A stretch of DNA of 58,784 nt from Candidatus Zixiibacteriota bacterium (lineage in GTDB: Bacteria; Zixibacteria; MSB-5A5; JAABVY01; JAHJOQ01): assembly GCA_018820315.1 (NCBI GenBank), contig JAHJOQ010000111.1:1-58784 (forward strand). Direction: 5' to 3'. Position 1 is the stretch's first letter. Every line of letters begins with the position of its first letter. Of this stretch, positions 47,916 to 49,679 are shown one piece after another. The translations under genes and the position numbers were made by a program. Below the pieces are notes generated by a model. The model was not told where the DNA came from, searched no databases, and saw only the letters and a list, made by a program, of their open reading frames with translations.

Positions 47916-48494
47916 ATGAAAAAAGCGTATATTCTTCTTATAGCTGTGTTGGTTGTTGTAGTTCTGGGATTCACGTATGCGAGGAGCTATCTCAGCCGTC
48001 TCGAATCGGAGGACATCAGGATAAAGCAGCGAATCAGCCAAACGCAGCTTATGGACAGCCTGCGCACAACATATCAGTCGATGGCCAGAGAGACCAGTGC
48101 AGAACTGCAGCGGCGCTATGACAGCCTCGCCGATGAAAGCACTGTACTGATCTATGCTCTTGAATCGCAGCTCAATCTCATATTGTATCCTGAACTGGAT
48201 CCGATTGCTGGAGGAGATACTGCAGATGTCGGCGCCACAAATGTCTCAGGGAATGACACATCAGCCACAGTCGAATCGGCTGATATCATCACACCTGCCG
48301 AATATGAGATTTATCTGACGTACCTGGAGAAGTCTGTTGCACTTCCCAAGGATCTGTCATCATACGAGAGAAAAGTGGCGGTCAGGGATATCAAGAATAC
48401 TCTAATGAGACGATTCTCCGTAGGGGATGAAGACATAGTGGCGATCCTCAAGAAATTGAGGGAGCGTCCGGATCGGGAGTCCGAGCCAGGGTAG
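47916..48494 (+). CDS. Membrane-anchored coiled-coil protein of unknown function
   Basis: A 192-residue protein. A single hydrophobic helix at residues 5-20 (ILLIAVLVVVVLGFTYA) is followed by a charged, heptad-rich region (about 25-80) likely to be a coiled coil, then a short Gly/Asp/Thr linker and a helical C-terminus (about 120-185). It has a strong AAGGAGG site and promoter. No family is recognised. The soluble part is probably extracytoplasmic, because basic residues precede the helix. Confidence 0.65.
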   Translation: MKKAYILLIAVLVVVVLGFTYARSYLSRLESEDIRIKQRISQTQLMDSLRTTYQSMARETSAELQRRYDSLADESTVLIYALESQLNLILYPELDPIAGGDTADVGATNVSGNDTSATVESADIITPAEYEIYLTYLEKSVALPKDLSSYERKVAVRDIKNTLMRRFSVGDEDIVAILKKLRERPDRESEPG

Positions 48495-48682: not shown

Positions 48683-48883
48683 TCAAATAATCGAACCTGG
48701 CTCATCCGCGGGTTGCACCTTAGTGTCGATACTGCGGTCGTAGGATTCGATTCGTTGCTGGCCACGCAGGATTCTATTGACTGTAGTGATAAACTGATTC
48801 GGTGCCATGCTCTGAAGCCGACAGGGAACCCAGCTCTTCTTACCGAACCACTCGGATAGTGTTAGCTCGCGCTTGGGGGACAT
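48683..48883 (-). CDS. Small protein A, paralog of the 49506 gene product
   Basis: A 66-residue protein from the ATG at 48883, chosen because GGAGGAAGG ends 5 bases upstream and the paralog has the same length. Its core, KKSWVPCRLQ (residues 15-24) and FITTVNRILRG (31-41), aligns without gaps to the core of the 57-residue protein at 49506: KK.W.P..LQ then F..TVN.IL.G then a Tyr (12 or more identities over about 40 positions). The family is not one I recognise. The region is divergent from the HTH protein at 49077, with 193 bases between starts. Confidence 0.7.
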   Translation of the reverse strand: MSPKRELTLSEWFGKKSWVPCRLQSMAPNQFITTVNRILRGQQRIESYDRSIDTKVQPADEPGSII

Positions 48884-49076
48884 GTTGCCTTCCTCCGTAG
48901 TACAAAGACGAAATCTCCCCATTTGCGGCGGCGTTCGAATATAGATGCGATATTTCACAGTACCATTATCAAGTTTACCCATAAATCGTGATTTGTCAAG
49001 GATTATGACGGGTTAATTGATTGACAGATTCGTCTGAGTTCGTAGATTTCGTTAAAGCAGGAGACACGGCATCTGT

Positions 49077-49430
49077 ATGACACACCGGTCTGAACATCAT
49101 TTCGCTGAGGCGATCTTCGAGAAACTCGCACTCGAGAGCCTTCCTGTGGAGCAGTCCGCGTATGCCGATACTGGAGGCGATAGCTCCATTGAGGAGATTC
49201 TGCCTAAGTACAGATCAAAGCTCAAATGGCATATTCGCAACTCCCTTTCTCCGAGGCAGAGAGAGGTAATCGGGCTGATTTTGAAGGGCAAGACCGAGAG
49301 AGAGATATCCTCAATACTTGGGGTTGCCCAACAGGTTGTTCATATTTATAAGTGGCGTGCTATTAAAATGTTACGGAAGAAGTTAGCATCGAGAGCTGTA
49401 TGTCAAAAAACTAATAGTAGAAAGGGATAA
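49077..49430 (+). CDS. Sigma-region-4/LuxR-type HTH protein
   Basis: A 117-residue protein. Residues 50-105 form a helix-turn-helix of the sigma70 region 4/LuxR type: LSPRQREVIGLILKGKTEREIS then ILGVAQQVVHIYKWRAIKML. The first 50 residues lack a receiver domain or sigma region 2, so it is neither a response regulator nor a complete sigma factor; it could be a DNA-binding regulator or an anti-sigma-like adaptor. The start is ATG 49077 without a strong ribosome site. It lies between two small paralogous genes; control of these is a reasonable hypothesis. Confidence 0.72.
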   Translation: MTHRSEHHFAEAIFEKLALESLPVEQSAYADTGGDSSIEEILPKYRSKLKWHIRNSLSPRQREVIGLILKGKTEREISSILGVAQQVVHIYKWRAIKMLRKKLASRAVCQKTNSRKG

Positions 49431-49505
49431 TTTACGCGCATCTGACACAACGCCTCTTCCGGTACCCTCGCACCGCCGATCGTGAAGTTGACTGGGAGGT
49501 GTAAA

Positions 49506-49679
49506 ATGTTTGGGATTCGCAAAGACCTCGATTACACAAATGCGGTAGACAAGAAGATCTGGCATCCCCTCAGCCTCCAGGCCTTGCCCGCAAGGGATTT
49601 CGTCATCACCGTCAACAACATTCTCTCCGGCAAATGCGGTATGCTGACCTACCGCAGTCGAGAAATGGCGAATGGATGA
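49506..49679 (+). CDS. Small protein B, paralog of the 48683 gene product
   Basis: A 57-residue protein. GGGAGG lies 6 bases before the ATG at 49506, so expression is likely. Its core, KKIWHPLSLQ (residues 16-25) and FVITVNNILSG (32-42), matches the small protein on the other side of the HTH gene at the same relative positions, without gaps. It has no signal peptide or transmembrane helix. The family is unknown. It follows the HTH gene by 75 bases on the same strand and may share its transcript. Confidence 0.7.
   Translation: MFGIRKDLDYTNAVDKKIWHPLSLQALPARDFVITVNNILSGKCGMLTYRSREMANG

Follow-up and report, generated by a model that had tools for sequence, protein, structure and literature searches.

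The locus lies on a contig of a Candidatus Zixiibacteriota bacterium, of which positions 1 to 58,784 were analysed and are referred to here as the window. Three open reading frames form its core: small protein B, the inverted paralogue of the pair (48683..48883, minus strand, 66 aa), a helix-turn-helix (HTH) protein of the LuxR/sigma-region-4 type with a conserved N-terminal stretch of ~50 residues (49077..49430, plus strand, 117 aa), and small protein A, the HTH-linked family member (49506..49679, plus strand, 57 aa). The original prediction, two small proteins with an HTH protein between them, is borne out for all three frames, and so are the good ribosome sites claimed for the small genes: both start with ATG, and both sites, GGAGGAAGG for small protein B and GGGAGGTG for small protein A, are strong. 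A further gene (47916..48494, plus strand) encodes a 192-aa membrane-anchored coiled-coil protein, the conserved first gene of the module described below, which carries a C-terminal LPKDLSSYERKVA motif. Its N-terminal single transmembrane helix and its coiled coil were assigned by eye, and against Pfam only a sub-threshold match to DUF4714 is observed.

The two small proteins align with each other (E 0.001, 34% over 44 aa), and a family profile built without either of them matches only small protein A (E 3.3e-9) and small protein B (E 1.5e-7) in the window, with zero matches in the reversed window. The proposed kinship of the pair is thus upheld by mutual alignment and by an independent profile. 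The HTH, small A, and small B genes are under purifying selection. Values of ω between close relatives are about 0.05–0.16 for small protein A in nearly all pairs compared, about 0.01–0.15 for the HTH protein, and about 0.07–0.12 for small protein B; the single high value, 0.75, is from small protein A of L158/L159, a pair almost without substitutions.

The HTH protein matches two Pfam families above their cut-offs, GerE (PF00196, E 1.2e-8) and Sigma70_r4_2 (PF08281, E 4e-6), and has no Response_reg match in Pfam, in agreement with its earlier description as a sigma region 4/LuxR protein without a receiver. It therefore has the GerE HTH of a NarL/FixJ response regulator without the receiver domain, and the region 4 HTH of a Sigma-70/ECF sigma factor without region 2, no PF04542 match being found in its 117 aa at E up to 10. 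Because sigma region 2 is absent, the suggestion that the small proteins are anti-sigma partners is not supported in the strict sense. The HTH orthologue is present as one copy per genome in about 76 genomes.

The small proteins are members of a hitherto undescribed Zixibacteria family that is almost universal in the phylum. Members are roughly 45–65 residues long and share the pattern K..W.P..LQ.L....F...VN.IL.G...L; the form that we call the canonical copy, of about 46 aa, terminates in ..LIK. The search for homologues in other genomes that had been proposed at the outset finds the family in 127 of the 132 Zixibacteria genomes searched, and in 77 of the 78 of high quality. This genome carries six copies: the window holds two, C98 a tandem pair, and C143 and C73 one each. 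A scan of 84,980 species by short peptide patterns, which would overlook remote relatives outside the phylum, returned 114 relatives, and the 80 listed among them are Zixibacteria or records taken as mislabelled or unnamed members. Two apparent cases of spread outside the phylum, the Calditrichota-labelled L086 and L099, were discarded, as their matches lie at contig positions identical to those in the in-class genomes G103 and G096. A viral match (L134) is spurious, with an E-value of 0.51 within a 601-residue frame, and tblastn against phages gives no match to the family. Neither profile nor fold searches of Pfam, NCBIfam, PHROG, or PDB return a significant match to the small proteins, for which the original prediction had likewise recognised no family, and no description of the family was found in the main texts of the open-licence literature.

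The AlphaFold2 model of small protein A contains a strand-helix-helix-strand (β-α-α-β) core, with a mean pLDDT of 91–92 over residues 21–40, and a Foldseek search with the 57-residue model gives no match at E up to 0.001. Of the family members, 98.5% carry a positive net charge (mean +6), and inspection of the small proteins by eye shows neither a signal nor a transmembrane segment.

The placement of the family gene with respect to the HTH gene is conserved. In every locus with enough flanking sequence (75 distinct sequences), a family gene lies 3′ of the HTH gene on the same strand, at about 100–360 nt from the HTH domain; the single exception, L217, has no downstream family member, but this locus stops at the contig end. 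As in the window, the gene immediately 5′ of the HTH gene and on the same strand is the coiled-coil gene in 62 of 76 loci, with a median gap of 19 nt in the main cluster; in almost every locus with the motif of the coiled-coil protein, its gene lies 3–108 nt 5′ of the HTH gene. An inverted small protein B beside the HTH gene is observed only in the gene order of the window, in seven genomes (G000, G001, G002, G004, G005, G006, and G007). The conserved unit is thus the coiled-coil membrane protein, the HTH protein, and then small protein A, with small protein B as an order-specific addition. Co-occurrence of the homologues with the HTH gene, the second check proposed, is found in about 75 genomes, so that of the flanking pair originally described the association of the HTH protein with small protein A stands as a general one and that with small protein B does not. 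The two homologue-based outcomes named at the outset as refutations, a complete lack of homologues and homologues that never adjoin the HTH gene, are clearly contradicted. A few genomes (G097, G085, G078, G043, and G050) retain the coiled-coil and small genes although no HTH gene is detected in them, which argues that the small protein is not solely a partner of the HTH protein. At L139 (G050:C104), the family member adjoins motA/motB-like genes as well as the coiled-coil gene, with the HTH gene absent.

Other copies are found in a variety of contexts. The canonical copy precedes an M23 peptidase gene in 70 of 80 loci and has an ECF sigma-cluster gene within three genes in 48 of the 80. In five loci, a copy is located 3′ of a Fur-family gene, about 70–160 nt behind it; the Fur-family assignment is by Pfam in one of these loci and by sequence likeness in the others. 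In four genomes (L135–L138), the domain forms the N terminus of a receiver protein encoded beside a kinase gene. The receiver belongs to Response_reg (PF00072, E 4e-16 to 4e-15 in the three fusions scanned), the top Foldseek matches of the AlphaFold2 model of a fusion are PDB receivers, and the gene directly 3′ of the fusion, as shown in L135, encodes a PAS-HisKA-HATPase_c kinase by Pfam. The fusions of L135–L138 therefore have the receiver domain of a response regulator and, in L135, the adjacent histidine kinase. Some copies adjoin genes without a regulatory link, namely those for M23 peptidase, multihaem cytochrome, TonB-type receptors, and DUF5131.

The intergenic regions of the module contain several candidate control elements. 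A consensus scan, in which the count of hits is not above that in shuffles, places candidate promoters for the HTH gene (TTGACA-16-TAGATT, 49021..49048, plus strand) and divergently for small protein B (TTGACA-16-TAAACT, 48972..48999, minus strand). The terminal part of the HTH gene contains a conserved DNA element, GTTAC-N22-TGTATGTCAA (49370..49406, plus strand), which takes the form GTTAC-N~20-GTGTATGTCAA across loci. Its GTGTATGT core is present in 53 of 75 HTH loci, compared with 6 for the best shuffled 8-mer, and nearly all of the 36 exact genome-wide matches to the GTTAC element are at the HTH locus. The element probably serves small protein A as its promoter or operator.

The leader of small protein A in the window (49431..49505, plus strand) is short and could form a weak CGCCTC pairing with the GAGGTG ribosome site, although the pairing of this leader with its own ribosome site is not significant (z −0.49). 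In the longer leaders of relatives, a AAGGAGGTGAT element precedes an arm whose sequence is complementary to that of the ribosome site. Among 61 such relatives, cognate arm pairs average −15.4 kcal/mol versus −12.6 kcal/mol for non-cognate pairs, and the cognate pairing sum is reached by 0 of 5000 permutations, in which shared ancestry is not fully removed. Single-sequence pairing with the ribosome site is only slightly better than in shuffled sequences (mean z −0.83; p up to 0.05 in 16%), the RNAalifold consensus across whole leaders is weak, and Rfam returns only a sub-threshold group I intron match. The covariation between leader arm and ribosome site suggests that translation of the HTH-linked copies is controlled by leader pairing. 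In most HTH-linked copies (L153–L249), AAGGAGGTGAT is itself a near-perfect Shine-Dalgarno sequence, located about 110 nt 5′ of the real start, and it may compete with the ribosome site for the masking arm. The idea of a leader peptide behind AAGGAGGTGAT was rejected, since its frames and starts, inspected by eye, vary among loci.

Of 72 canonical copies, 56 have the sigma-54 pattern GGCA-N7-TGC upstream, compared with a mean of 1.0 and a maximum of 4 in shuffles, and sigma-54 is encoded in 37 of the 39 genomes searched, including this one. The sigma-54-type promoter is observed about 125 nt before the canonical start, as in L006:1340-1467, and a hairpin-like CCGATA leader recurs before canonical copies.

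Since the family is usually found beside or fused to proteins of gene regulation, the two proteins probably serve as small regulatory partners and not as a toxin-antitoxin pair. Of the roles originally offered, the small regulatory module is the one that finds support, in the conserved HTH–small protein pair and in the links of the domain to receiver and histidine kinase, Fur, and ECF sigma proteins. We give about even chances to the fuller reading that these are Zixibacteria-specific basic microproteins, each a single compact β-α-α-β domain, that act as co-regulators with DNA-binding or signalling proteins. The conserved HTH–small protein order, the coiled-coil neighbour, the receiver fusion, the Fur and sigma-54/ECF links, and the positive charge favour this co-regulator role; the loci without an HTH gene, the copies beside non-regulatory genes, and the fold search without a significant match weigh against it. 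In such a scheme, the membrane-anchored coiled-coil protein would probably sense or tether and the HTH protein would bind DNA. Small protein A, together with the divergent small protein B in the gene order of the window, would alter the output of the HTH protein by binding to that protein, to RNA polymerase, or to the promoter region. With an upstream element of its own and, in the majority of relatives, a leader that masks the ribosome site, the level of small protein A would be set apart from that of the HTH protein, and feedback is possible. The broader proposal that the domain is a phylum-specific transcription adaptor, serving sigma-54, ECF, Fur, LuxR-type, and two-component circuits with its dosage set by leaders that mask the ribosome site, is speculative and we regard it as unlikely.

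A tentative but real possibility is that the small domain binds DNA or RNA itself and functions as an output domain. It would then serve as the response-regulator output in the receiver fusion, and the free-standing copies would be very small regulators in their own right, a number of them perhaps binding the structured leaders of their own genes. The prevalence of basic members, the fusion beside a histidine kinase, the covarying leader that sequesters the ribosome site of HTH-linked copies, and the CCGATA hairpin-like leader of canonical copies are all consistent with this, whereas no known DNA- or RNA-binding fold or family is matched, the RNAalifold consensus is weak, and canonical and HTH-linked copies have different leaders and hence no common binding site. 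It is quite improbable that the family consists of cell-envelope or localisation proteins whose nearness to regulators is incidental to envelope-stress operons. Its most constant neighbours are indeed envelope proteins, the M23 peptidase of canonical loci and the membrane coiled-coil protein of HTH loci, and one copy lies beside motA/motB-like genes, but the apparent lack of signal or transmembrane segments speaks against it, and the fusion with its kinase and the Fur and HTH linkage would be hard to account for. A toxin-antitoxin-like set, another of the original suggestions, could be read from the small size and the neighbouring HTH protein; it is very improbable given near-universality without sign of mobility, the lack of a toxin-antitoxin family match in Pfam or NCBIfam, the spurious viral and absent phage matches, and a single fixed gene order with separate leaders. 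Small size is also all that would recommend chance or non-coding frames, a negligible prospect with profile matches in >120 genomes, ω well below 1, and strong ribosome sites.

Small protein partners of HTH regulators are exemplified by SinI with SinR in Bacillus. The present system is similar in that a tiny protein, a proposed modulator, is encoded beside an HTH DNA-binding protein; it differs in that no sequence relation is seen, the partner is of the LuxR/sigma-region-4 type, the family is phylum-wide, and receiver fusions occur. Similar to response regulators, the fusions in four genomes combine a CheY-like receiver with a neighbouring PAS histidine kinase, but here the extra domain of ~45 residues is N-terminal and matches no known output family, and most copies are free-standing. 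RbpA, Crl, and BldC are lineage-specific small transcription co-factors, and the family resembles them in being small, clade-restricted, near-universal in its clade, and linked to sigma or HTH proteins, although no homology is detected and contact with RNA polymerase is only putative here. The family also shares clade-wide distribution, unknown function, and conserved gene context with the FESNov and synapomorphic unknown families of uncultivated taxa (PMC10849945), a paper whose main text makes no mention of Zixibacteria. What is added here is a family tied to several kinds of transcription control within one uncultivated phylum, one of these ties being the fusion of a receiver to an N-terminal domain that is not recognised. 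Should the family prove to be a general co-regulator, bacterial transcription control would gain a lineage-specific component, and the pair of HTH and small protein is compact enough for testing in E. coli.

Two further contexts were observed. In L130, L131, and L133, the family member follows a ~424-aa protein that resembles an HTH regulator by eye and has no Pfam match in its first 150 residues. In L148 (G000:C98:3197-3766), in a context unlike the others, the tandem family pair of this genome adjoins a DUF5131 gene and a gene for a GMT-wHTH protein.
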